DNA of 11,731 nt, from assembly GCA_913009675.1 (NCBI GenBank), contig CAJVXD010000015.1, forward strand, positions 1 to 11,731, written 5' to 3'. Below, piece by piece: positions 786 through 11,540 of the stretch. Every line of letters begins with the position of its first letter. Within the stretch, counting starts at the first letter, position 1. A program made the translations under genes and the position numbers. The stretch comes from an uncultured bacterium (lineage in GTDB: Bacteria; Omnitrophota; Gorgyraeia; Gorgyraeales; Gorgyraeaceae). The notes beneath the pieces are model-generated. The model was not told where the DNA came from, made no database searches, and saw only the letters and a program-made list of their open reading frames with translations.

Positions 786-1229
786 TTAAAAGACATTGAG
801 CTTCAGGATGTGACGCTCGCCGTTTTCTTCAAGGATCACACTATTTTCAGTAATCTTAATCACTGTCATATTGCCTAGTTTATCTCCGACTTTTACAACG
901 TCTGTATTTATAATAGCGTATGGGTTCTTTTCGTCCCACACAATACCATTTACAATCAAGTCTCCCAGTTCAGTGTTCCCTGCGTTAGCTGTGGCCAAGA
1001 AAAACGGGTCCCGCCCCCATCCTTTTTCTATCTTAGATCTTTCCACTTCAGCTCTTTTAAAAGAAACAGGCTCCGACATAGAAGAGGTAACAGCCTTGCC
1101 CGTTTTATTCATAGAGTTCTTCTTTACCTGAATCCTCTGTGCGCCCCGGATAACCAGAAATATCAAAAATATAACACCGATACAGGTTATTGTAAGCTCG
1201 ATTCGTTCTTTCTTGTGTAGGTTCTTCAT
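786..1229 (-). CDS. PilP/GspC-like inner-membrane pilus assembly protein
   Basis: A 147-residue bitopic protein with a short basic cytoplasmic N-terminus, one transmembrane helix at about 11-27, a polar linker, and a small periplasmic beta domain at about 88-145 (LIVNGIVWDEKNPYAIINTDVVKVGDKLGN...). The W-G-R-D-P-F sequence at 71-76 before this domain is typical of PilP and GspC homology-region proteins, which connect the inner-membrane PilN/PilO (or GspL/GspM) ring to the secretin. Classical PilP is a lipoprotein, but there is no lipobox cysteine here. The protein is anchored by a helix like GspC, yet has no room for a PDZ domain. It starts 3 bases after the PilO-like stop and is the last pilus gene of the cluster. 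The PilP/GspC superfamily is well supported; choosing one name over the other is arbitrary. Confidence 0.85.
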   Translation of the reverse strand: MKNLHKKERIELTITCIGVIFLIFLVIRGAQRIQVKKNSMNKTGKAVTSSMSEPVSFKRAEVERSKIEKGWGRDPFFLATANAGNTELGDLIVNGIVWDEKNPYAIINTDVVKVGDKLGNMTVIKITENSVILEENGERHILKLNVF

Positions 1230-1232
1230 AAG

Positions 1233-1817
1233 TTATTTTCCCAGCATAAAGGCATTTAAGTCTATCTCTGCCTTTACCATTGGCGCTATTCCCGTATCCT
1301 TTTTTATATCCACCTTTTCTATGGTAACCATGGGATTTCTATTCAGCTCAAGACTTAAAAGAAATTCCCCCATTGCCTGATATCTCGCCTCAACGTTCAG
1401 GACCAGGGGCATGCATTTACAAAACCCCTCGAAAACCTTAACCTCCTTCCCCTGCAGGTCTTTATATGTAAAAATGTCCTTTGGCTTTACTAAAACCACG
1501 TCTATCTTAAAACGCTGTGCCTCCTTATTTAATTGCTTGATTATGTTAGATACCTCCTTCTCAGGAGGAAAGGCATCTTCAAACAAGGCCAATTCCTTGC
1601 GTATCCTTATGATATTTTCTTTAAGATCCTTCCTGCCGCCTATAAAACTGTAAAGATCGTTTATCTCTCCTGCTACATCCTTGAATTGAGCCTCTAATTT
1701 TTTGACCTCTCTATATTTCGGGAGATACACAAATTGAAATAATAATATTACGACAAATATAAGGATGCTTATTGTTATCATATCTTTCTTATTTTTAAAA
1801 CCGGGCATTATCTTCAT
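1233..1817 (-). CDS. pilO: PilO/GspM-like inner-membrane assembly protein
   Basis: A 194-residue protein with a short positively charged N-terminus, a single transmembrane helix at about 13-31, a coiled-coil-prone stretch at about 36-80 (rich in K/E/L, including REVKKLEAQFKDVAGEINDL), and a C-terminal ferredoxin-like periplasmic domain. The segments FPPEKEVSNIIKQLNKEAQRFKID and VEARYQAMGEFLLSLELNRNPMVTIEKVDI are typical of PilO. PilO dimerises with PilN and helps form the alignment ring between platform and secretin. It starts 8 bases after the PilM-N fusion stop, with a weak AGAG Shine-Dalgarno about 6-7 bases upstream of the ATG, and ends 3 bases before the PilP-like gene. An internal ATG at codon 4 is an alternative start. 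The order M-N, O, P matches the canonical pilMNOP order, which strengthens the assignment. Confidence 0.88.
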   Translation of the reverse strand: MKIMPGFKNKKDMITISILIFVVILLFQFVYLPKYREVKKLEAQFKDVAGEINDLYSFIGGRKDLKENIIRIRKELALFEDAFPPEKEVSNIIKQLNKEAQRFKIDVVLVKPKDIFTYKDLQGKEVKVFEGFCKCMPLVLNVEARYQAMGEFLLSLELNRNPMVTIEKVDIKKDTGIAPMVKAEIDLNAFMLGK

Positions 1818-1825
1818 AATAAACT

Positions 1826-3361
1826 CTACTTCGTCAAGTTACAGATTATCTCGAAATCCAATGCACCCGATGAGTAATCCTCGTCTTTTTCACTAAATAC
1901 CAACTGCACCTTTTCAAACATAGGGGAGCTTTCAAGGAGAGACATAAACTTGCTTAGCTGCCCTTCTTTCAAAACAATCCCCGAAAGCCTCAGATTAGGT
2001 TCTGTATTCTTCATAACCAGGGCATCCAGGGTCATAGAGGAAACCACGATATTGCTAAACTCCTTCATTATCTTTCCTGCCTCTATGCCTCCGGAAGAGA
2101 CAGTCTTCAAAGTAGAACTGAGCATAACCATCTTATCCCTGACAGTCCTTATATCCTGCACTGTCTCTAAATGCGCCCTGTATATTTCAAGCTCTTTTTT
2201 TAAATTAGCTGATTTGACCAGCAGGAATCCATAGGAAAACAGGGATATAAGGGCAAATGCAATAGAAACCATCCTCAGGGAAATCCTTTTCAACTCTCTG
2301 CCTTTTTCTTCTTTGAAGCTTTCCGGGAGCATATTTATATCGCTCCCCGTGCCTAAGACCAGGCCAACAGCCTCTGCAATTTCAGGAAGCACATCTAACA
2401 CCTCGGCCTCCATTTCTTTGGATATATAATCCCTTAAACCCTTTAATCTCGCAGCATTGCCTGCCAGGATAATCTTTTTGACAGGCTGAGAGGCGAACTC
2501 ATGCTCATAGTATTCCGTGGACCTCCTTATCTGCGTAATCAGCCTCTCCAGGACCGGCCTCATCACGGATAATATCCTGATATCCTCTGAAATGCCCTGT
2601 TCGATCTTTATCTTCTCGGCCTTTTCTCTCGAAAGCTCTATCCTGCCTTTGTCCGACATAAGAGTGCCTGTCATTGACGCGGTAATGGTGTCACCGCCTA
2701 TGGGGACCTTCCTTGTAAAAGACATTCTTTTATTTTCGACGATTGTTATTAGTGTTGAGCTGTTCCCTATATCTACAATGGCTACTGTCTCTTCCGGAGA
2801 AACCAGATTTAAATGATTTACATAATTAACGAGTGCGAACTCAGTAGGGATAACGGCCTGCACATTTAGGCCAAAACCCCTTAATTCCTTCAGCCTTGCT
2901 TCAATATCGCTCTCATTATAAACTATTGCTATTAACTCTATTTTCTTAGAGCCGTCCTCTATCTGTTTCTCTCCCAGGATACTGAATTTTATCCTGGATC
3001 TGTCAATATCAATATTATGAAGCTGGCCTTTTAGCTCCCATCTCAGGGCCTCTTCAATTTCCCCAACAGGCATAAAGGGCAATCCTACCCGCTTTATCGC
3101 TATCTCACCTCCCCTAAGATTAACAGATATCTTATCATCAGAGGATATATGCATATGGCCTGCCAAATCTTTAAGATAGGATACCTCTTTTACCATGGTA
3201 TCCTTGAGAGGGATTTCCCTGATATCTTCCTTAAGCCTTGCGGCCCTGAAATATTTTGCCCCTATATCAAGGCCTATCACGTTCCCGGATTTTGGTATCA
3301 AGCCTAAATCTGAAAGGATGGCCTTGCTTTCTTTTTTGAGTTGATCTAAAATGGATTTCAT
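1826..3361 (-). CDS. PilM-PilN fusion (GspL-like) assembly platform protein
   Basis: A 511-residue protein in one uninterrupted frame. Residues 28-337 form a PilM/FtsA-type actin-like ATPase: phosphate-1 loop GLDIGAKYFRA (30-40), phosphate-2 loop VDIGNSSTLI (196-205) and the late glycine motif ILAGNAARLKGL (298-309). After a linker of about four residues comes DINMLPESFK (341-350), which matches the conserved N-terminal peptide of PilN that docks into PilM. A transmembrane helix at about 360-381, a coiled-coil region at about 385-425 and a PilN periplasmic ferredoxin-like domain to the C-terminus follow. In most T4P systems PilM and PilN are separate, whereas GspL of T2SS has this same cytoplasmic-TM-periplasmic layout. 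The protein should join the cytoplasmic ring and ATPase to the periplasmic PilO/PilP. It begins 21 bases after the PilX-like stop with only a weak Shine-Dalgarno (AAAAAGAC). Confidence 0.92.
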   Translation of the reverse strand: MKSILDQLKKESKAILSDLGLIPKSGNVIGLDIGAKYFRAARLKEDIREIPLKDTMVKEVSYLKDLAGHMHISSDDKISVNLRGGEIAIKRVGLPFMPVGEIEEALRWELKGQLHNIDIDRSRIKFSILGEKQIEDGSKKIELIAIVYNESDIEARLKELRGFGLNVQAVIPTEFALVNYVNHLNLVSPEETVAIVDIGNSSTLITIVENKRMSFTRKVPIGGDTITASMTGTLMSDKGRIELSREKAEKIKIEQGISEDIRILSVMRPVLERLITQIRRSTEYYEHEFASQPVKKIILAGNAARLKGLRDYISKEMEAEVLDVLPEIAEAVGLVLGTGSDINMLPESFKEEKGRELKRISLRMVSIAFALISLFSYGFLLVKSANLKKELEIYRAHLETVQDIRTVRDKMVMLSSTLKTVSSGGIEAGKIMKEFSNIVVSSMTLDALVMKNTEPNLRLSGIVLKEGQLSKFMSLLESSPMFEKVQLVFSEKDEDYSSGALDFEIICNLTK

Positions 3362-3382: not shown

Positions 3383-4642
3383 CTACAGTGGTTCATGCCA
3401 AGAAGAAATTGTCATGGTCGTCTCCGCACCGCTATCGAATCCTTGTATAGAACCGACATCTACCTTTGCGCTGTCTTTGGTTATAACTGCACCCTTATCC
3501 AATTCAGTGAGGGTGCCCCCGCACAGATTGCCTGTAAGTGTCAGATTTTGTTTATCAATATCTACTTCATCTGCCCCAAAAATAAGACCGGTTATTGTAA
3601 TATTCTTTTTCAAAATAACCTTTTGAGGCGACAGGAGAACCACCCCTTCTCCTGTGTCAGCGCCACTCCCCAAAACAACCCCGTTGTCTACCTGCACCCG
3701 CGAGGAAGAATAAAAAGTAACATCTTTCCCCACATTGCCATTTTTTTTCATCTTTAAAGTACTGCTGGAGATAAGCGCAATATTATCCCCTATATCCGTG
3801 TTTCTATTTATAGTAATCCTGCCCGTGGCGACTATGGTGCCGGAACCATCCACATAATCCTTTATCGTTACATTCCCGTTTACATATTCAGTCCCTGAAA
3901 GTGTTTCACCATTAAAGGTCCTGTTGCTATGCGATTCTTCTGAGGCGGTTGTAATCAAATTATCATAATATGTAGTGTCCAGTGTAGGCTGATTAGCCGG
4001 TGCGCTTGAGTGGTCAAGGGTATCGCCTGAAATTTCGGTACCACTGCCAACGCTAATCGTACCCGTAGCTAAAACATCTCCATTAATGGTGCAGTTTTTC
4101 CCTATCACCAGATCGTCATACACAAAGGTATCGCCCGTTATAGTCTGGTTCTTATTTATAGTGGTCGTACCTGTCCCGTCTCCGCCGCCGAAAAATATTG
4201 CAAAGTCTGCAAAGGTATCACCGCCGGTTGTCTTCTCTATATGCTGGGTTATAACCCGCTGTACATCATTGCCGTCCCAACCAGCAACCTTGCCTGTGGC
4301 TGTTACGTCTATTGAATCTTCTGCTTGATTGGCATAACTCACGCTAAATGTTCCTGCACCAAAGGATTGATCCGTCTTAACTGTCGGGGGGGTTGACCAA
4401 TCGCTGTCATTCCCGAGTTCTTCCATGTACCACTCCAGCCCTGCCTGAGCGAGATAAAATGCCTGCTGTGCCTGTATATCAGTCACGGAAGATATACTGC
4501 CGGTGGACATAGTAGACGCTATTATCAACGCCAGCGTCGACACTACCAGCATCACGATAGTGACTGCGATGAGAGAAATCCCACTGCTCCTCTTGAGAAG
4601 GTCAAAAATTCCTCGGGACGCTTTCCGACTCCAAATAAACAT
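3383..4642 (-). CDS. PilX/GspK-like minor pilin with a repetitive beta-solenoid-like region
   Basis: The N-terminus is a PilX_N-type segment: basic residues, then G-I-S-L-I-A and a hydrophobic helix at about 22-43, then AQQAFYLAQAGLEWYMEEL, the typical PilX signature after the helix. As in many PilX/GspK proteins, the glutamate at +5 of the mature pilin is absent (alanine here). The rest, from about residue 140 to 400, is rich in G, N, T, V and I with regularly alternating short strands (for example NGDVLATGTISVGSGTEISGD), suggesting a parallel beta-helix or related polymer-like fold. The start at 4642 is preferred: AAGGA (4651-4655) is 8 bases upstream, whereas the ATG at 4651 directly abuts it. 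Either start overlaps the 3' end of the PilW-like gene (41 bases with 4642). Total length is 419 residues. It probably sits at the filament tip. The PilX N-terminus is secure; the fold of the rest is inferred from composition. Confidence 0.85.
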   Translation of the reverse strand: MFIWSRKASRGIFDLLKRSSGISLIAVTIVMLVVSTLALIIASTMSTGSISSVTDIQAQQAFYLAQAGLEWYMEELGNDSDWSTPPTVKTDQSFGAGTFSVSYANQAEDSIDVTATGKVAGWDGNDVQRVITQHIEKTTGGDTFADFAIFFGGGDGTGTTTINKNQTITGDTFVYDDLVIGKNCTINGDVLATGTISVGSGTEISGDTLDHSSAPANQPTLDTTYYDNLITTASEESHSNRTFNGETLSGTEYVNGNVTIKDYVDGSGTIVATGRITINRNTDIGDNIALISSSTLKMKKNGNVGKDVTFYSSSRVQVDNGVVLGSGADTGEGVVLLSPQKVILKKNITITGLIFGADEVDIDKQNLTLTGNLCGGTLTELDKGAVITKDSAKVDVGSIQGFDSGAETTMTISSWHEPL

Positions 4643-5099
4643 CTTCGCCATCCTTTGTAAGGGTCAAATCTATCAGGACCCTTCTTATATCAGTTGCGCT
4701 AGGGCTAACGGCAGGTGTAGAAATCGTACTACCATTGGAATCATAATAAGTAAATGAGAGACTTGAAACATTTTCTGCCAGCGTATTAGCCGTCCCGTCT
4801 TCTGTCCGCTCAAGGTCAGAACCGTTTAAACTGTAAGTTATATCCGTATCATCCGTGTCTATAAATCTAAACTGCGAGCTGCTTGCTGCTATAACGCTTG
4901 TCAAATCCTTTACCTCTCTTACCTCCCTTACTATCCTGTTTATGGCAAGCCTTCCGTCTGATAAAAGACCGGCTCGCTTCAATCTAAAGGTCCACGCGTC
5001 AACTGCGCCAAACAAGATAAACCCCACCACGCCTGCTATAATACCGATTATTGTTATAACGACTACAAGCTCGATTAAGGTAAACCCGCGCTTTTTCAT
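4602..5099 (-). CDS. PilW/GspJ-like prepilin-type minor pilin
   Basis: A 165-residue protein with a textbook class III signal: MKKRG, then FTLIELVVVITIIGIIAGVVG, so a prepilin peptidase would cut after G5 and E10 is the +5 glutamate. The segment after the helix (AWTFRLKRAGLLSDGRLAINRIVREVREVKDL) and the later mixture of beta strands (FRFIDTDDTDITYSLNGSDLERTEDG) match GspJ/PilW proteins, which bind I and K partners to form the pseudopilus tip. It follows the PilV/GspI-like gene after a 49-base gap filled by a REP-like palindrome, and there is no Shine-Dalgarno before its ATG. Its last 41 bases overlap the start of the PilX-like gene, suggesting coupled translation. The J/W assignment rests on gene order and the N-terminal pattern. 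Confidence 0.85.
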   Translation of the reverse strand: MKKRGFTLIELVVVITIIGIIAGVVGFILFGAVDAWTFRLKRAGLLSDGRLAINRIVREVREVKDLTSVIAASSSQFRFIDTDDTDITYSLNGSDLERTEDGTANTLAENVSSLSFTYYDSNGSTISTPAVSPSATDIRRVLIDLTLTKDGEDVYLESESVPRNF

Positions 5100-5148: not shown

Positions 5149-5514
5149 CTAATAGTTTGTCACAATCGTCTTTAAACTAACGCTCCCTATCATCGTATTC
5201 GTCACTACCACTTCGACCTGTTTATAATCAGTCATACTCGGGTCGACTGCGATATCCATAGGCACTGCGCTTACTATAACCTGCCAGGAATAATTGCTAA
5301 AATTGCCGCTATAAGTCCCGCTGTCGGAAGTCACAGAAAAACCTTCACCAACCACCTTCTCCATCTCTCCCTTTGCTAAGCCTGCAGCAACGGTCATTAC
5401 CTCATCACGGGTTGCATTTGTAAATACACCCGTTAACACAGCCACTAGCCCTAAAAAGGCAATGCCGATAATTACTATTGATATGACTGTTTCGATTAAA
5501 GTAAAGCCGCGCAT
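5149..5514 (-). CDS. PilV/GspI-like prepilin-type minor pilin
   Basis: A 121-residue protein from the preferred ATG at 5514: MRG then FTLIETVISIVIIGIAFLGLVAVLTG, with cleavage expected after G3 and E8 as the +5 glutamate. The following AAGLAKGEMEKVVGEGF resembles the GspI/PilV pattern (A..LA..EME..). The 5514 start gives a short, normal prepilin leader and has AAGGGG (5522-5527) 7 bases upstream. A second in-frame ATG at 5547 overlaps the FimT-like stop as ATGA and would add the unusual peptide MSCCCGPRGQT, so translational coupling from there cannot be excluded. The position between the H-like and J-like genes fits the usual H-I-J-K order of T2SS minor pseudopilins. Confidence 0.85.
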   Translation of the reverse strand: MRGFTLIETVISIVIIGIAFLGLVAVLTGVFTNATRDEVMTVAAGLAKGEMEKVVGEGFSVTSDSGTYSGNFSNYSWQVIVSAVPMDIAVDPSMTDYKQVEVVVTNTMIGSVSLKTIVTNY

Positions 5515-5543
5515 TGTTTGACCCCTTGGTCCGCAGCAACAAC

Positions 5544-6032
5544 TCATTGTATCTTAACCTTCCCCGTTACTGCCTCGATCCTTACTGTCCTGGAATTACT
5601 TCCATCTGTCAGGGTCACTATACCCTCGTTCGACAAGGCCGTGCCGTTTCCATCATACGGTTTTCCTGTGGAATCAAATTCTATAGCGTCGCTAAAATTA
5701 GTGCTTACTATTTCTATCTCCTTAAACTCGTCCGTCCCACCAAAGTCAACCTCTAAATCTCCCTGTGTCTGGGGGTTTTTTGCCTTGGTCCCGGTGTTTA
5801 TCCTATATCCAAAATAAGATTCATCGCCTGTATCAAATGAGATACCGAACCTCACCTGTTCAGCCATAGCCATCTGCTGGCAATAACGTAAATCCATGGC
5901 AAGCTTTTGACAGGCCGCCTCAAGCCTGACAGGGCCCTTTGCCCTGCCGTTTATAAGCACCGCAACAGCCAGAATACCAACGATAGTAATCACTACTACC
6001 AGTTCGATCAACGTAAAACCGGTCCTATGCAT
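5544..6032 (-). CDS. FimT/GspH-like prepilin-type minor pilin
   Basis: A 162-residue protein: MHRTG then FTLIELVVVITIVGILAVAVL, giving cleavage after G5 and a +5 glutamate at E10. The helix extension (ACQKLAMDLRYCQQMAMAEQVRFGISFDTG) and the C-terminal strand ending in RTVRIEAVTGKVKIQ are typical of the GspH/FimT domain. A Shine-Dalgarno AGGGA (6039-6043) stands 6 bases before the ATG. It follows the glycosyltransferase by 37 bases and opens the block of four minor pilin genes. GspH/FimT proteins take part in the initiating complex of the pseudopilus, and in some competence pili FimT binds DNA. Which applies here cannot be told from sequence alone. Confidence 0.88.
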   Translation of the reverse strand: MHRTGFTLIELVVVITIVGILAVAVLINGRAKGPVRLEAACQKLAMDLRYCQQMAMAEQVRFGISFDTGDESYFGYRINTGTKAKNPQTQGDLEVDFGGTDEFKEIEIVSTNFSDAIEFDSTGKPYDGNGTALSNEGIVTLTDGSNSRTVRIEAVTGKVKIQ

Positions 6033-6069
6033 ATTATATCCCTATCCTGCTGCCGGGTAAAAAAACCCT

Positions 6070-6768
6070 TCACCGTCTACAATACTTTGCCAATTCCCAT
6101 AATATACCTAAACCATACCTTACACCTGCAAAAAAGTCAACCTGTGAGGCCTCTTTAAAGTATCTTGTTTCAATAGGGATTTCGGCTATCTTAAATCCGG
6201 CCCCGGCCGCCTTAATCAAGATCTGGGCATCGAATAAAAAATCATCTGAATTGGCTTGCCAGTCCACATTTTTTAAAAATCCCCTGCTGAATGCCCTGAA
6301 CCCTGTATGAAATTCGGAAAGGTTCAGATCCAGGACCTTATTTTCACAATATGTAAGAAATCTATTGGCCGCATACTTCCATAAAGGCATATTACCCTTC
6401 AATGCGCCTCCGCCCAGAATCCTGGAACCCAGAACAATGTCTACCTTATCCTCGATTATTGGCTGTATTAATCCAGGGATCTTACTTGCGTCGTACTGAT
6501 AATCGGGATGAAGCATTACTATAACATCAGCACCTTTATCCAGGGCCTCACGGTATAATGTCTTTTGATTCCCTCCATAGCCCTTATTCTTCTCGTGAAC
6601 CAATACACTAATTCCTAACCCCCTCGCCACATCAACAGTCCTGTCTTTACTCCCGTCATCACAGAGTATAACCTCATCAACAATACCTTTAGGTATGTCC
6701 CTGTAAGTATTCTCGAGGGTCAACTCTGCATTATATGCCGGCATCACGATTATGATCTTCTTATCCAT
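6070..6768 (-). CDS. Family 2 glycosyltransferase, polyprenyl-phosphate sugar synthase type
   Basis: A 232-residue GT-A fold enzyme of the DPM1/GtrB-like branch of GT2. Visible motifs are the N-terminal strand IIIVMPAYNAELTLE, nucleotide-binding DDGS (37-40), NKGYGGNQKTLYREAL (61-76), the metal-binding region HPDYQYDA (87-94, matching the DADLQH-type motif of the family), VLGSRILGGG (112-121) and the acceptor region EFHTGFRAFSR (152-161). Such enzymes usually move a sugar from a nucleotide donor to a polyprenyl phosphate on the cytoplasmic face. There is no C-terminal transmembrane pair of the GtrB kind, so the enzyme is probably soluble or peripheral. It has no clear Shine-Dalgarno and follows the YfhO-like gene after a 104-base repeat-bearing gap. 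The neighbouring YfhO-type protein is a plausible partner using its lipid-linked sugar. The donor sugar cannot be predicted. Confidence 0.9.
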   Translation of the reverse strand: MDKKIIIVMPAYNAELTLENTYRDIPKGIVDEVILCDDGSKDRTVDVARGLGISVLVHEKNKGYGGNQKTLYREALDKGADVIVMLHPDYQYDASKIPGLIQPIIEDKVDIVLGSRILGGGALKGNMPLWKYAANRFLTYCENKVLDLNLSEFHTGFRAFSRGFLKNVDWQANSDDFLFDAQILIKAAGAGFKIAEIPIETRYFKEASQVDFFAGVRYGLGILWELAKYCRR

Positions 6769-6872
6769 GATATTAAAAAAGGACTTCAGGTATTGGGGAA
6801 ACTCTGCATAAGTATTATGCCCCCTATTGGCTCCCTCTTATTAATTAGTATTGTGTCCCCCTATTTCCCTTA
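6769..6872. other. Gap between YfhO-like and GT2 genes
   Basis: The longest gene-free interval of the cluster (104 bases). It contains one full and one degenerate copy of the 32-bp repeat and a run of six A on the plus strand (T on the transcribed strand, 6775-6780) just before the GT2 start. I see no convincing hairpin terminator, no good promoter and no Shine-Dalgarno for the GT2 gene. Confidence 0.5.
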
Positions 6873-6920
6873 TTAATTAGTATTGTGTCCCCCTATTTCG
6901 GCGGGCCCCCTATTTCGGCG
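6808..6920 (-). repeat. Tandem 32-bp repeat plus partial 17-bp repeats at the 3' end of the YfhO-like gene
   Basis: Two perfect 31-base copies lie at 6837-6867 and 6869-6899 (period 32); read on the plus strand each contains TTAATTAGTATTGTGTCC followed by CCCTATTTC. A degenerate third copy is visible at 6808-6830 (AGTATTATG then CCCCCTATT). The 3' part is repeated again with a 17-base period: CCCCCTATTTCGGCG at 6889-6903 and 6906-6920. The array encodes the last 15 or so residues of the YfhO-like protein and supplies its stop codon. From memory, GGGGACACAATACT-type sequences accompany REP-associated (Y1-type) transposases in several phyla; this is unverified here and no transposase is present in the window. 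Confidence 0.85.
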
Positions 6921-9290
6921 TCTTCGCTTGAAGAATATCGCAATTATTACAGCTGTCAGTAATGTTATTATCGCTCCCATTTTAAATGAAAAGGGGTCGT
7001 ATGTAAATTTTATAATGTGCCTGCCTGGCTTCAGGTGGACGGCACGGAGGATATAGTCAGCCCTGTAAATCTTTGTCCGGCTGCCATCCACATAGGCCTT
7101 CCAGCCAGGATAATAGGAATCGCTTAAAATTAAAAACCTTGGAGCGCTTATATTGGCCCTGATTACTACTTCGCCCGGGGAGTATTTGAGGATATTTACT
7201 GTTTCCCTGCCGTTCGTCGTTCGCCGTTCGCCGTTCGTAAAAGAAAGGTCCTGCTCCAATATAACTTCTTTTGCCGGATTAAAATCCCTGCTTTTTAATC
7301 TCTTTAAAACCTCGCCTTTATCCTTGATGACGACTACCTTGCCTACTAAAAACGCCCTCGGCAAAACATTTTCATTCTCGTAAATATTTGCTCTTTTGCC
7401 CTTCTTTACCATCCTATAGCCTTTTGCTTCAAAGACCCTTGGCGAGATTATATATTTTGCATTCAGGAGATTTAAAAGATTCGTCTCGTCAGGTGAACCT
7501 CCTTCTGCTATAGCCTTGACAAGTTCTTCATGACGTCCATTATAAAGCGAACCGTATCCATAGACGCTATAGATCCCAAAACTCACATTTCTATTCGTAA
7601 CCATCCTTTCCTTAAGCGAGCGCACCCCATCAAAATATCCCCGCTCAGGGACAAATATATTCTGTTTTATTGTCGCAGGCGAATTAAATATCCTGAACAG
7701 TCCTTTGTCACTTTTTAAAAATTCAACACTTGGGCCGGGTTTCAGGTATTCACCTATATCCATGTTCTGATAAACATGCCTATTTGCCGTAAATATGTCC
7801 ATAAATGAGACACAGAGCAAGATTGGAAGTATAAGACTCAACTTCACCCTGGTCTTTGAAGGCAAGAACATCAATAAGGCTAAAAACATAAAATAGCCGA
7901 GCGCCCTCTTCAGGTTATAGAGCCCTGCAAAGACAAATTGTGCCAGTTCAGCCTTTTTATCTGCAAAAGCGGAAAAGACACTCAACGCCTTATTATATAA
8001 AAACCTGTAAAACTCACTAAAGTTCAGGTTTAGTATTAAATAAAGGAATGAAGCTGCGCACGCAATGGCCAAAAGCGCTTTTAGAAATCTTCCAAGTTTC
8101 AAACATTCCTCGAGCGACCCGTCCCGGCGAAGCGTCGAGAACCTAACAAACCTTCTGTAATAATCCAGGCCCATGCCTGCTAAAACAGCCAATGAGAATG
8201 TCACCATAAAAAAGAATTTTACAGGGTATCTTGAAAGCCCGAATCCCGGTATAACCTTGTATAAAAAATAATAAAGAGGCGTATACCTGCCAAAGGAAAG
8301 CACTAAGCCCAGCGCCAGGATATAAAAAAATGCCCTTCTCCGACTGCACCTGTCGAATCTTAAAGAAATAAATGCACATATCATGGAAAATATACCCATA
8401 TAATAAACCAAAAGCCAGCTCTGGCGTGTCCAGTAATCCTTATAAAGATAATCTGTTTCGCTTAGATAAGGTACAAATAGATCCAGAAGCGCATACGGAG
8501 GCAGCGACCACATACTTGCCTCCCTGAACCCCATTGTAGAGCGGGAGGTATGTTGTAATAATTCAAGGAACGGCAGGACCTGAAAACAGGAAAGCCCGGC
8601 TGTAACCAGGAGGCTAACTGATATAATCCTGAACATTGCCTTAAATCTATCTGCGGCGTCAATACCAAGCAGGATCAAAATGAAGATCGTCGCCAAGAGT
8701 ATCGCCGGTTCACCACCTAAAAACATCATGGTCAAAAATATGCCTGTAATAATAGAATTTTTTACCCAATCGCGGGTTAACGCCCTTTTGTAAAACAAGA
8801 TCACAAGCGGAAGCCATATCACTGAAGCAAGGGATGCAGGAAGATTTATTACAGAAATAATGTAACCGCTGAACATAAAAACCGAGCCGGAGAGAAATGC
8901 CGCATATCTCGAATATCTCCATTCTCTCATCAGGATATACGTAAAAAGCCCTGCCAAAAAGACATGCACTATTATGAAATAATTAAAGGCTCGCGCAAAG
9001 GGAAATAATAGATAGATCACACTGAGGGGGTAAAATACACATGTCTGAAGTCCGGCAAGATGCGGACTGCCGCAATGTATATAGGGATCCCATAATGGGA
9101 TCCGGCCGGCCCTGAGGACTCCTACACTGAATTCTCTCAAGGGGTAAAAAAACCTGAGGAGGTCTCTGTGGATAAAGATCCTATTCCCAAATAATGTATC
9201 GGAAAAAAATAGAGAGGGAAGGATTAATAAAATAAAAATGGGGACGGCCTCTTTCAACCATCCCCATTTATCTCTCGTAATCTGTTTCAC
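6873..9290 (-). CDS. YfhO-family multi-pass membrane protein, GT-C-like glycosyltransferase candidate
   Basis: An 805-residue membrane protein of the YfhO family. The start is GTG at 9290; an overlapping ATG at 9292 runs straight into TGA, and no Shine-Dalgarno is evident. A first helix (about 14-30) is followed by an outward loop with HRDLLRFFYPLREF (41-54, D43 being the likely GT-C acidic residue), RIPLWDPYIHCGSPHLAG (63-80) and a YP pair, all typical of the family. About a dozen further helices extend to residue 500, then a soluble domain with DSYYPGWKAYVDGS (724-737) and RADYILRAVHLKPGRHIIKFTYDP (743-766), and a last helix at about 771-787. In Bacillus, YfhO acts with a GT2 partner to glycosylate teichoic acid. 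Three repeat-like insertions interrupt the coding sequence (8106-8142, 7211-7238 and 6873-6920) without breaking the frame. It lies between the major pilin and a GT2 enzyme. The family is well supported; activity is inferred. Confidence 0.87.
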   Translation of the reverse strand: MKQITRDKWGWLKEAVPIFILLILPSLFFSDTLFGNRIFIHRDLLRFFYPLREFSVGVLRAGRIPLWDPYIHCGSPHLAGLQTCVFYPLSVIYLLFPFARAFNYFIIVHVFLAGLFTYILMREWRYSRYAAFLSGSVFMFSGYIISVINLPASLASVIWLPLVILFYKRALTRDWVKNSIITGIFLTMMFLGGEPAILLATIFILILLGIDAADRFKAMFRIISVSLLVTAGLSCFQVLPFLELLQHTSRSTMGFREASMWSLPPYALLDLFVPYLSETDYLYKDYWTRQSWLLVYYMGIFSMICAFISLRFDRCSRRRAFFYILALGLVLSFGRYTPLYYFLYKVIPGFGLSRYPVKFFFMVTFSLAVLAGMGLDYYRRFVRFSTLRRDGSLEECLKLGRFLKALLAIACAASFLYLILNLNFSEFYRFLYNKALSVFSAFADKKAELAQFVFAGLYNLKRALGYFMFLALLMFLPSKTRVKLSLILPILLCVSFMDIFTANRHVYQNMDIGEYLKPGPSVEFLKSDKGLFRIFNSPATIKQNIFVPERGYFDGVRSLKERMVTNRNVSFGIYSVYGYGSLYNGRHEELVKAIAEGGSPDETNLLNLLNAKYIISPRVFEAKGYRMVKKGKRANIYENENVLPRAFLVGKVVVIKDKGEVLKRLKSRDFNPAKEVILEQDLSFTNGERRTTNGRETVNILKYSPGEVVIRANISAPRFLILSDSYYPGWKAYVDGSRTKIYRADYILRAVHLKPGRHIIKFTYDPFSFKMGAIITLLTAVIIAIFFKRRRRNRGPAEIGGHNTN
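7211..7238 (-). repeat. Four-copy 7-bp tandem repeat inside the YfhO-like gene
   Basis: On the plus strand the units are CGTTCGT, CGTTCGC, CGTTCGC and CGTTCGT, back to back. They encode residues of about 685-694 (TNGERRTTNG) in a hydrophilic loop of the C-terminal soluble domain. Seven is not a multiple of three, so a change of one unit would shift the frame. Confidence 0.8.
8106..8142. repeat. REP-like palindromic repeat within the YfhO-like gene
   Basis: A 37-base imperfect palindrome beginning TTCCTCGAGCG and ending CGTCGAGAAC on the plus strand. It encodes residues of about 383-395 (FSTLRRDGSLEE) in a cytosolic-looking loop between helices. It shares its flanks and the CGAAGCG core with the element at 5105-5141, so the two look like members of one dispersed family. 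Confidence 0.6.
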
Positions 9291-9310
9291 ATCTATAGCG
9301 ATCTGTGTAT

Positions 9311-9709
9311 TTACCAGGCGGACGTATCCTCTGTCCTGTCAGAATATGCCCCTACCTTACCGGAAGCAGATATATACCACCATCCATTCGTGGACGTAGC
9401 TGTGCCGCTGGGTGCAGATCCTACCGCTCCTACAGACGTAGAATTATTCAACTTATTTTCCGGGATCCTCTCGTCTGCAAATAGACTGGTTGTAACTGCA
9501 GTCGGGAATGAAGCAGTACCGGATGTAGCGTTCTTCGCATATTGAATGGCAACTACCGAACGTATTGCGCCCAGGCCGCTCTTGGCAGCGCTGACCTTGG
9601 CCTTGCCGGTCAGGTCTACAAATTTAGGGATTGCAATTGCCGAGAGTATACCAAGTATAACAATCACCATTACAAGCTCAATAAGCGTAAAGCCCTTAGC
9701 GTTCCTCAT
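9311..9709 (-). CDS. Type IV pilin / major pseudopilin-like protein
   Basis: A 132-residue prepilin: MRNAKG then FTLIELVMVIVILGILSAIAIPKFVDLTGKAKVSAAKSGLGAIRSVV, with prepilin peptidase cleavage expected after G6 and E11 as the +5 glutamate. The proline and KF after the helix (IPKFVDL) and the alpha-1 extension match major pilins and GspG/MSHA-type pilins. The C-terminal part is rich in S, T, A and G (59-108) and ends with GWWYISASGKVGAYS, a common final beta-hairpin. There are no cysteines, hence no D-loop disulfide. A strong Shine-Dalgarno AGGAGG (9718-9723) lies 8 bases before the ATG, inside the end of the preceding gene. Together these suggest the most abundant subunit. It is followed after 20 bases by the YfhO-like gene. 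Confidence 0.9.
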   Translation of the reverse strand: MRNAKGFTLIELVMVIVILGILSAIAIPKFVDLTGKAKVSAAKSGLGAIRSVVAIQYAKNATSGTASFPTAVTTSLFADERIPENKLNNSTSVGAVGSAPSGTATSTNGWWYISASGKVGAYSDRTEDTSAW

Positions 9710-9711
9710 CT

Positions 9712-10080
9712 TTATCTCCTCCTCACTTTTATGGTTCCGAGCTTATTATTATATATAAACCTGCGGCCATATGGATCCACAGGATAACCTTGTTCGTCCT
9801 GCGACTGAAGTTCCAGATACCTTCTGCCGTATAGACTATCTTCTTTTATTATTGATACCCGGCTGGTATTAAGCTGTCTTAAATCCTCCGGGTATCGGCC
9901 TTCGAACATCCTATACAATTGTAATGAATATCTTAGATTTGTCAACTCGTTTTTCATCGTAACCTTCCTTGCCTCTTCCAGATTTACAATCCAATGCCTC
10001 GCAAATACTGCGTAAAGAATAAATATAATTGTTATAGAAAATATCAACTCTATTAAACCCCTGCCAATATTATTGCGCAT
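9712..10080 (-). CDS. Divergent GspG-like pseudopilin
   Basis: A 122-residue protein from the ATG at 10080 (MRNNIG, then RGLIELIFSITIIFILYAVFARHW). The layout is that of a pseudopilin, with a possible cleavage site after G6 and glutamate at +5 (E11), but the usual F-T at +1/+2 is R-G. The C-terminal half has GspG hallmarks: TNLRYSLQLYRMFEGRYPEDLRQL (47-70) and GYPVDPYGRRFIYNNKLGTIKV (98-119), resembling the DPWG-type end of GspG. The ATG at 10155 would add 25 residues that overlap the upstream small gene out of frame and spoil the leader, so 10080 is preferred; AAGG lies 9 bases upstream of it. It starts 4 bases after the stop of the small membrane protein and ends 2 bases before the pilin. 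It may be a minor or initiating subunit. Confidence 0.8.
   Translation of the reverse strand: MRNNIGRGLIELIFSITIIFILYAVFARHWIVNLEEARKVTMKNELTNLRYSLQLYRMFEGRYPEDLRQLNTSRVSIIKEDSLYGRRYLELQSQDEQGYPVDPYGRRFIYNNKLGTIKVRRR
9718..9723 (-). promoter_or_regulatory. Strong ribosome binding site of the pilin gene
   Basis: AGGAGG on the minus strand, 8 bases before the pilin ATG at 9709. It lies within the last codons of the upstream GspG-like gene, whose C-terminal triple arginine is encoded by this purine run. It is a textbook match, better than most of the other start sites in the cluster and equalled only by that of the small membrane protein. Confidence 0.8.
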
Positions 10081-10084
10081 CGCC

Positions 10085-10300
10085 TCAGGCCTTACATAAA
10101 TAATAAGCGACAAAGAATAGTGTTGCTGCTGAAAGTAAAAGACAGATCCCAACACCCTGCCTATACCTGTAGATTAAATTATCTAAATCGCTCATAAGTC
10201 TATTCGCCTGCATATTCATCTTTCTCAAGCCCTCCGGCGCTAACAATAATAAAACGCCAAAGATCAAAGCAACCACCCCTGAGATTATTAAAAAACCCAT
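10085..10300 (-). CDS. Small two-helix membrane protein of unknown function
   Basis: A 71-residue protein with two hydrophobic segments, at about 2-21 (GFLIISGVVALIFGVLLLLA) and 50-69 (VGICLLLSAATLFFVAYYLC), joined by a polar and basic loop of about 28 residues (PEGLRKMNMQANRLMSDLDNLIYRYRQG). It has a strong ribosome binding site (AAGGAGGAGG region, 10307-10317) with good spacing, and sits tightly between gspF and the GspG-like gene, so it is a real gene and not a shadow frame. I do not recognise a named family. Its position suggests an accessory of the inner-membrane platform, but this is only inference. Confidence 0.75.
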   Translation of the reverse strand: MGFLIISGVVALIFGVLLLLAPEGLRKMNMQANRLMSDLDNLIYRYRQGVGICLLLSAATLFFVAYYLCKA

Positions 10301-10322
10301 TTTCCCCCTCCTCCTTTACTTT

Positions 10323-11540
10323 TTAATGCCCGAATACCGATATCAAACTCCACATCGGTAAAAATATTGCCAACGCGAGTATCAAGACCAGGATCCCCAT
10401 AATGAATATCAGTATTGGCTCTATAAGGACTGTCAGATTCTTAACGGTATAATCTATCTGTGAATCATAATAATCCGATACCCTCATAAGTAAATCATCG
10501 ATCTTGCCTGTCTCCTCTCCGATCTTCACCATCTGCAGTACTATGCCGGGGAAAAGGCCGCTTGCCTTCATCGAGGCCACCATGCCCTCGCCCTCACTGA
10601 CCCCCTCTTTAATGTTTTCTATAGCATTCGCGATAACCTTATTCCCAACAGCCCCTCTAACGATCTCCAATGTATTTATAATAGGCAGGCCGCCTGCGGA
10701 AAGCGTAGCTGTCATCCTGCAAAAACGCGACATTGAAATCTTTAAAGCAAGCGGCCCAAAGATAGGTACTTTTAATTTAATAGTATCCCAGATGCGCCTT
10801 CCGAAAATGGTATTGATAAAATATCTAGCGGCTATGACCAAGGCAACGGCCCCGATAATTATGAAAGGCCAATAATGGACAAGGGCATAATCCATGGCTA
10901 AAAGCATCCTTGTGGGAAGGGGGAGTACGGTATTAAACCTTGCATAAACAGCACTGAACCTAGGTATGATAAACACGACCGCCAGAGGAAAGGCAATACC
11001 AATGCTGGCTATAACCAATGATGGATAGCGGGTTGCCTGTTTTATCTTAATCCGTATCTCCTGTTCATGCTCAAGGAGAGAGGCGAGCCTATCCAGGATA
11101 TTATCGAGAATCCCTGCTGCCTCCCCGGAACTTATCATGTTTATGTAGATATCAGAAAATACATTGGGGAACCTTGCGATTGACTCCGAAAGGCCTTTTC
11201 CTGCTTCTATATCGCGGGATATCTCGTCGATGACCTTCCTGAAATAACGATTGCTGCTTTGCCCGGCGATAGACTCCAGGCTTACAAGGATCGGGACACC
11301 TGCCTGCTGGAGGGCCATGAGCTGGCGTGTAAACACGATCAATTCTTCTAAATTTACCCTGCGGAAAAATCTTTCGAATAGATTAAATCTCTCTAATGCG
11401 GGATTGGTTTTTTCTATTGAGGTAGGGGCGTATCCCATCCTCTTAAAATGACCGGCAACCGTTTCTTTGGAGCTGCCTTCTATCGTGCCGGTAGAGGCCC
11501 GGCCGTATTTGTCGCGAATCTTGTACTTAAAATAAGTCAT
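10323..11540 (-). CDS. gspF: GspF/PilC-type inner-membrane platform protein
   Basis: A 405-residue protein of usual family length. A short N-terminal domain (FKYKIRDKYGRASTGTIEGSSKETVAGHFKRMGYAPTSI) is followed by two T2SSF domains at about 65-190 and 268-391. Each begins with the family pattern (F-TRQLMALQQAGVPILVSLE at 70-89; FCRMTATLSAGGLPIINTLE at 273-292) and contains the GE motif (SSGEAAGILDNIL and KIGEETGKIDDLL). Transmembrane helices are at about 172-192, 222-240 and 370-394. GspF couples the ATPase to pilin extraction from the inner membrane. Its ATG shares one base with the GspE stop (TAATG), showing translational coupling. Confidence 0.96.
   Translation of the reverse strand: MTYFKYKIRDKYGRASTGTIEGSSKETVAGHFKRMGYAPTSIEKTNPALERFNLFERFFRRVNLEELIVFTRQLMALQQAGVPILVSLESIAGQSSNRYFRKVIDEISRDIEAGKGLSESIARFPNVFSDIYINMISSGEAAGILDNILDRLASLLEHEQEIRIKIKQATRYPSLVIASIGIAFPLAVVFIIPRFSAVYARFNTVLPLPTRMLLAMDYALVHYWPFIIIGAVALVIAARYFINTIFGRRIWDTIKLKVPIFGPLALKISMSRFCRMTATLSAGGLPIINTLEIVRGAVGNKVIANAIENIKEGVSEGEGMVASMKASGLFPGIVLQMVKIGEETGKIDDLLMRVSDYYDSQIDYTVKNLTVLIEPILIFIMGILVLILALAIFLPMWSLISVFGH

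Follow-up and report, generated by a model that had tools for sequence, protein, structure and literature searches.

Pilin-accessory cassettes have been described from Pseudomonas aeruginosa, in which the transferase TfpO or TfpW is encoded downstream of the major pilin (PMC11841053, PMC11626772). According to these accounts, TfpO modifies a C-terminal serine and different pilin groups have unrelated transferases (PMC11841053, PMC11626772), and a terminator after the pilin is a common feature that has been proposed to act as an attenuator (PMC11841053). Here, we describe a comparable arrangement in an uncultured bacterium of the phylum Omnitrophota, on contig CAJVXD010000015.1 of assembly GCA_913009675.1 (the window: the whole stretch of 11,731 nucleotides that was analysed), where a gene for a YfhO-type membrane protein directly follows a pilin gene. 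On the best reading, the arrangement itself is a known one, and the YfhO-type transferase in that slot is a new variant of it.

Two described systems bear on the enzymes. In Bacillus subtilis, CsbB and YfhO serve lipoteichoic acid glycosylation by a proposed two-step transfer across the membrane (PMC5836110). The Streptococcus mutans Pgf system (PgfS-PgfM1-PgfE-PgfM2) joins a GT-A enzyme to membrane proteins and modifies surface proteins; its account calls PgfS, the GT-A enzyme, membrane-bound and classes PgfM1 as PMT_2, and the parts cited here do not use the name YfhO (PMC5856776). For a YfhO-like component 27, YfhO-labelled proteins have been reported to be STT3/PglB-like; the account as cited here draws no link to pilins, and likeness to that component is by description only (PMC10584680).

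The features of the window that carry the argument are as follows.

9311–9709, minus strand: prepilin that is probably the major pilin and is proposed as acceptor, ending ...SDRTEDTSAW (N_methyl PF07963, 35.5 bits; cut-off 21.2)
9314–9328, minus strand: codons for DTSAW at the pilin C-terminus, with Ser/Thr and a final aromatic residue (from the tail comparison)
9236–9269, minus strand: terminator-like hairpin 3' of the pilin, 14 pairs and then TTATTTTATT, overlapping early YfhO codons; termination is predicted
6873–9290, minus strand: YfhO-type GT-C membrane protein of 805 residues with a GTG start, proposed pilin glycosyltransferase (PF09586, 98 bits; cut-off 28.5)
9162–9164, minus strand: codon of D43, candidate catalytic acid by analogy with GT-C enzymes (invariant, 70/70)
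7101–7115, minus strand: codons of YYPGW, residues 726–730 (P728, G729 and W730 invariant, 70/70)
6070–6768, minus strand: GT2 of 232 residues, proposed polyprenyl-phosphate sugar synthase for donor supply, an optional partner (PF00535, 83.3 bits; cut-off 23.3)

An earlier, sequence-only reading had placed a GT2 and a YfhO-type gene here; both open reading frames lie where it put them, on the minus strand, and their Pfam families agree. It had also set the pair between the major pilin and the minor pilins. A prepilin does precede the pair and a GspH-like gene follows it; the word 'major' is presumptive, because a second pilin-like gene (GspG-like, 9712–10155) precedes the pilin.

What stays constant is the succession of pilin and YfhO, rather than the GT2-YfhO pair. 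(G-numbers below denote genomes and L-numbers loci or stretches; counts for the order, Gorgyraeales, include the window's own genome.) All 31 genomes with a close YfhO, the window included, have it in a pilus operon, and a pilin stands directly before it in 28 of the 28 loci with readable upstream sequence (window included). In the order, YfhO was found in 17 of 19 genomes, the best pieces being 56–81% identical to the window's. Each of the 17 lies within the pilus operon, and the preceding gene is a pilin in all 15 that are readable (the contigs of G007 and G013 start inside YfhO, hence their upstream sequence is unreadable). G003 and G018 gave no match; in the former the best PilMN reaches 31% identity, and in the latter the contig breaks off within the GT2 gene. 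A draw from the class yielded any YfhO match in 52 of 246 genomes. Ten class genomes of other families have a YfhO that is 33–44% identical (E ≤ 6e-52), nine directly after a pilin (the pilin of G235 in this set is a fragment); in the tenth, G102, YfhO opens the contig and PilMN follows. A later draw covered 384 genomes of the phylum, mostly overlapping the earlier one. Forecasts were set before looking: four new YfhO proteins (38–41% identity) were expected to be pilin-linked, as all four were, and a fifth (30% identity) was expected to be unlinked and, contrary to forecast, was found pilin-linked.

Distant YfhO proteins occur at 24 further loci (23–32% identity, apart from one at 35% over a short stretch); in the 23 that are readable, the gene immediately before is in no case a clear pilin on the same strand. 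A tree was built from the protein of G393, 22 others, eight from other named groups and those 24 of the 31 pilus-linked proteins that are not fragments. All 24 pilus-linked proteins fall in one clade (98/93), with six Saganbacteria/Margulisbacteria proteins nested in it; the 22 distant proteins lie outside and that of G393 elsewhere too, the deep part of the tree being unsure owing to long branches. In G393 (L233 203–11929), several pilin-like genes in a row are followed by the distant YfhO, a 419-residue GT2 and a GT-C-like protein with tetratricopeptide repeats (TPR).

The GT2 is far less constant. It stands directly after YfhO in 10 of 26 readable loci and is not there in 16: it was seen in 8 of 13 in the order (not in G001, G005, G006, G008 or G013), in two of four from the later phylum draw (G369 and G382, 64–65% identical, of another family) and in none of nine in the class set. 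The survey of GT2-YfhO beside pilins that the sequence-only reading had suggested thus bears out conservation for pilin-YfhO and only in part for the GT2. GT2s of 68–73% identity lie on other contigs in G001 (70%), G004 and G005 (68%), and these group in one clade (98/94) with copies from the pilus loci of two families. The closest other GT2 reaches 55% identity in G006 and only 35% in G008 and G013. The proposed role of the window's GT2 fits the models that it matches, those of dolichyl- and polyprenyl-phosphate sugar synthases (DPhHxTase_Halo, PpgS, AglJ), all below their cut-offs, and its match to the structure of dolichol monophosphate mannose synthase (5mlz) at E 2.6e-10. At 6502–6510, its HPD aligns to the DAD of 5mlz.

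Comparison with the two described enzyme pairs gives a mixed picture. As with CsbB-YfhO, a GT2 and a PF09586 protein are co-encoded in the window. The CsbB GT2 bears C-terminal membrane segments, whereas the GT2 here has no predicted one (no 19-residue stretch exceeds 1.6 in hydropathy, the highest being 1.21) and is often absent; here, too, the system has a pilin for neighbour. The lack of a predicted membrane segment also sets it apart from PgfS, described as membrane-bound (PMC5856776). Like Pgf, the window combines a GT-A enzyme with a membrane protein, and the C-terminal domain of YfhO matches the PgfM2 model weakly (E 1.7e-9); in G073, a gene of the NAD-dependent epimerase/dehydratase family directly after YfhO (L125 6749–7735) may be compared with PgfE. 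The substrates of Pgf are other surface proteins, and the window's protein falls outside the NCBIfam equivalogs: the PgfM2 match covers 74 residues with 36.5 bits against 1500 for membership, and PgfM1 gives 19.6 against 1400.

The slot behind the pilin is specific. In 66 annotated stretches, a YfhO, GT-C-like or GT2 gene comes next after the pilin in 23 of 52 instances (spanning 13 of 23 families), whereas none of the 339 other core pilus genes is followed by one; 23/52 is no prevalence, because many stretches were chosen for holding YfhO, and the result lies in the contrast between slots. A second GT-C family, bearing TPR, stands directly after the pilin in 7 of 7 readable loci. Other enzymes occur there too. 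In G039 and G069 (L218 5280–11445, L221 16–6161), the genes behind the pilin encode a GT2 and three GT-C-like proteins, and in G068 (L224 4772–16000) a GT2, a PMT_2-like protein, unassigned proteins and a GT-C-like TPR protein lie between the pilin and a histidine kinase-response regulator-PilMN block.

The pilins beside these enzymes share a C-terminal tail, defined as a terminal W, F or Y with Ser/Thr among the three preceding residues. The window pilin is 73–83% identical in 14 genomes of the order. Its C-terminal region had been called Ser/Thr-rich, which holds only loosely: Ser and Thr make up 27% of the mature-like part beyond its residue 30, not far above the mean of 20% in 23 pilins without the enzyme. 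The tail is present in 25 of 27 YfhO-linked pilins (two of them from G142; fragments of G005 and G235 omitted) and in 7 of 7 beside the TPR enzyme, against 1 of 23 pilins without a GT-C (G191) and 0 of 5 beside other GT-C-like genes (Fisher's p = 9e-11, with relatedness ignored). A second pilin of G021, which resembles the YfhO-linked type but has no GT-C directly after it, ends in HINW.

After the pilin of the window, the terminator-like hairpin lies at 9269–9236. Of the 28 YfhO loci (window included), 18 have behind the pilin a stem of 11 or more perfect pairs with a T tract, versus 1 of 19 loci without a GT-C. In f3 and f6 the stems are of other sequence and lie between the genes, and each of the seven TPR-type junctions has a long hairpin near a T-rich stretch, as judged by eye.

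The YfhO assignment made from the letters, with its D43 loop and YYPGW, is upheld by the PF09586 match and by the 70-sequence alignment, in which D43, H109, R250, D498 and R533 are invariant along with P728-G729-W730. The predicted model has a GT-C fold. An acidic residue in the first loop, as expected of GT-C enzymes, is present as D43 in 70/70 sequences, and the ungapped rows of a further alignment all have D or E there; this loop would face outside, and D43 is a candidate catalytic acid by analogy. The predicted models of YfhO and of the TPR-bearing GT-C both resemble oligosaccharyltransferases.

Further genes identify the setting. The order on the minus strand is PilC, GspG-like, pilin, YfhO-type, GT2, FimT-, PilV-, PilW- and PilX-like, PilM-PilN, PilO-/PilP-like and LpxL-like, with several of the pilus labels assigned by position only.

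10323–11540, minus strand: PilC/GspF inner-membrane protein (PF00482, 190.8 bits)
9712–10155, minus strand: GspG-like (pseudo)pilin (PF08334, 27.6 bits; cut-off 21)
5544–6032, minus strand: FimT/GspH-like minor pilin (PF12019, 22.1 bits; cut-off 21)
5149–5547, minus strand: PilV-like minor pilin (N_methyl; PilV and XpsI models below cut-off)
4602–5099, minus strand: PilW-like minor pilin, labelled by position (N_methyl only)
3383–4651, minus strand: PilX-like protein, labelled by position (open reading frame; no Pfam match)
1826–3361, minus strand: PilM and PilN domains in a single open reading frame (PF11104, PF05137)
786–1817, minus strand: PilO-like and PilP-like genes, labelled by position (open reading frames; no NCBIfam match)

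PilC, PilMN and pilins in one operon identify a type IV pilus or type II secretion system (T2SS) locus; a secretin (PF00263) is encoded on another contig (G000:C43), and all 19 genomes of the order have one. Promoter-like sites number 21 in 5900–10400, versus 10.6 (standard deviation 3.0) in shuffles. At 6847–6896, the repeat ATAGGGGGACACAATACT occurs twice, at the YfhO end and in the YfhO-GT2 gap, one copy forming the last YfhO codons; it has six exact copies across three contigs of the genome and presumably resembles a REP-type element.

We consider it likely that the locus is a pilin-accessory cassette for glycosylation whose transferase is of the YfhO type, belonging to a type IV pilus or a T2SS-like relative of one. 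Judged by its family, the GT2 would load a single sugar onto polyprenyl phosphate in the cytoplasm, and a protein would flip the lipid-linked sugar. The YfhO-type protein would then move the sugar from its polyprenyl-linked donor to the pilin encoded upstream, at the outer face of the inner membrane, as linkage, fold and conserved residues suggest. The likeliest acceptor would be the Ser/Thr just ahead of the aromatic C-terminus, proposed because TfpO modifies a C-terminal Ser in Pseudomonas. The hairpin would hold the enzyme low relative to the pilin. The GT2 would not have to be a local one, and where it is absent another may supply the donor. Activity, sugar and acceptor are thus what we infer from sequence comparison. 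The resemblance to TfpO/TfpW cassettes lies in the accessory gene directly downstream of the pilin (in the window and in all readable loci), the terminator-like hairpin and the unrelated enzymes in one slot; the differences are that the enzyme is of the YfhO type or a GT-C with TPR, that a GT2 gene sometimes accompanies it, and that a complete pilus operon surrounds its gene. The idea of a pilin-tied glycosylation module, raised in the sequence-only reading, thus gains from conservation, slot specificity and the swap for a second GT-C, but its unit is not the GT2-YfhO pair. Much more tentatively, YfhO-type and TPR-bearing STT3-like GT-C proteins might be interchangeable pilin O-glycosyltransferases that recognise one shared pilin tail of Ser/Thr plus aromatic and have their dose set by the terminator, in Omnitrophota and perhaps Margulisbacteria/Saganbacteria.

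Several observations weigh against a pilin-directed cassette. Many pilus operons of the class lack such an enzyme gene, and the pilins of G021, G146 and G152 are alike over most of their length with no such gene directly after them. The tail is missing despite YfhO in G064 and G032 (2/27), as well as in all five pilins beside other GT-C-like genes; its criterion was fixed after viewing the alignment, and four of the seven TPR-linked pilins were scored later. The 11-pair stem limit was likewise chosen after most data had been seen and is uncorrected for relatedness; in f1 the stems overlap early YfhO codons, and by energy a hairpin is also found in 4 of 19 enzyme-less junctions and 5 of 24 control junctions. 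AftD matches the YfhO model about as well as STT3 does (24.7 versus 25.2) and comes first in Foldseek; it acts on polysaccharide (its PDB entry names an arabinofuranosyltransferase), and a common fold is no proof of function. Lipopolysaccharide (LPS)-type genes flank several of the YfhO-bearing operons.

The alternative that survives best, though we think it unlikely, is that YfhO and GT2 have their main targets among minor pilins, a secreted substrate or other proteins for export, and not in the neighbouring pilin. S. mutans Pgf modifies several surface proteins (PMC5856776, PMC11983588), and the GT2 orthologue and GT-C-like TPR proteins are present outside pilus operons too; the confinement of the enzyme to the slot after the pilin (0/339 elsewhere) and the correlation of the tail with its presence argue the other way. 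More improbable is a module decorating lipid A, LPS or another envelope polymer, its position in the pilus operon being historical. The flanking LPS-type genes go with the operon and not with YfhO, because the YfhO-less operon of G191 also has an LpxL-type gene, and none is labelled in the stretches read around YfhO of G023, G369 and G382. A non-catalytic role of YfhO in pilus assembly, as proposed for TfpY, is very unlikely: TfpY-like proteins encoded after the pilin in some Pseudomonas do aid assembly (PMC11841053), but the GT-C fold, the invariant candidate catalytic residues, the GT2 alongside in 10/26 loci and the swap for another GT-C family speak against it. Chance insertion or an assembly artefact has a negligible chance of being right, even in a 1.31 Mb draft genome of 225 contigs (the window being contig C15) that is 74% complete: pilin-YfhO was found in 15 genomes of the order and nine further families, and where the sequence-only reading would have taken a pair lying elsewhere in relatives as a sign of chance insertion, every close YfhO is in a pilus operon and the 24 loci elsewhere are more distant, outside the clade (22 in the tree).

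To our knowledge, known pilin transferases belong to few families. Literature searches, with most subscription journals and preprints outside their scope, turned up no link between YfhO and pilin or type IV pili; within that scope, the earlier remark that a YfhO-type pilin transferase had not been described holds, and neither GT-C family considered here is described in that role. Type-4a pili of Omnitrophota have been discussed in an account whose main text is without the words glycosyltransferase or YfhO, and which proposes host-dependent traits for the phylum (PMC10066038). In Pseudomonas, pilin glycosylation shields against pilus-specific phages (PMC11841053). The YfhO-type enzyme encoded directly behind the pilin may be a new type of pilus sugar-coating enzyme. 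If so, a YfhO-type enzyme tied to the pilin would bring pili into the range of a large family that is mostly uncharacterised, would imply that pili are glycosylated in an uncultured phylum and would give a precise acceptor tail.

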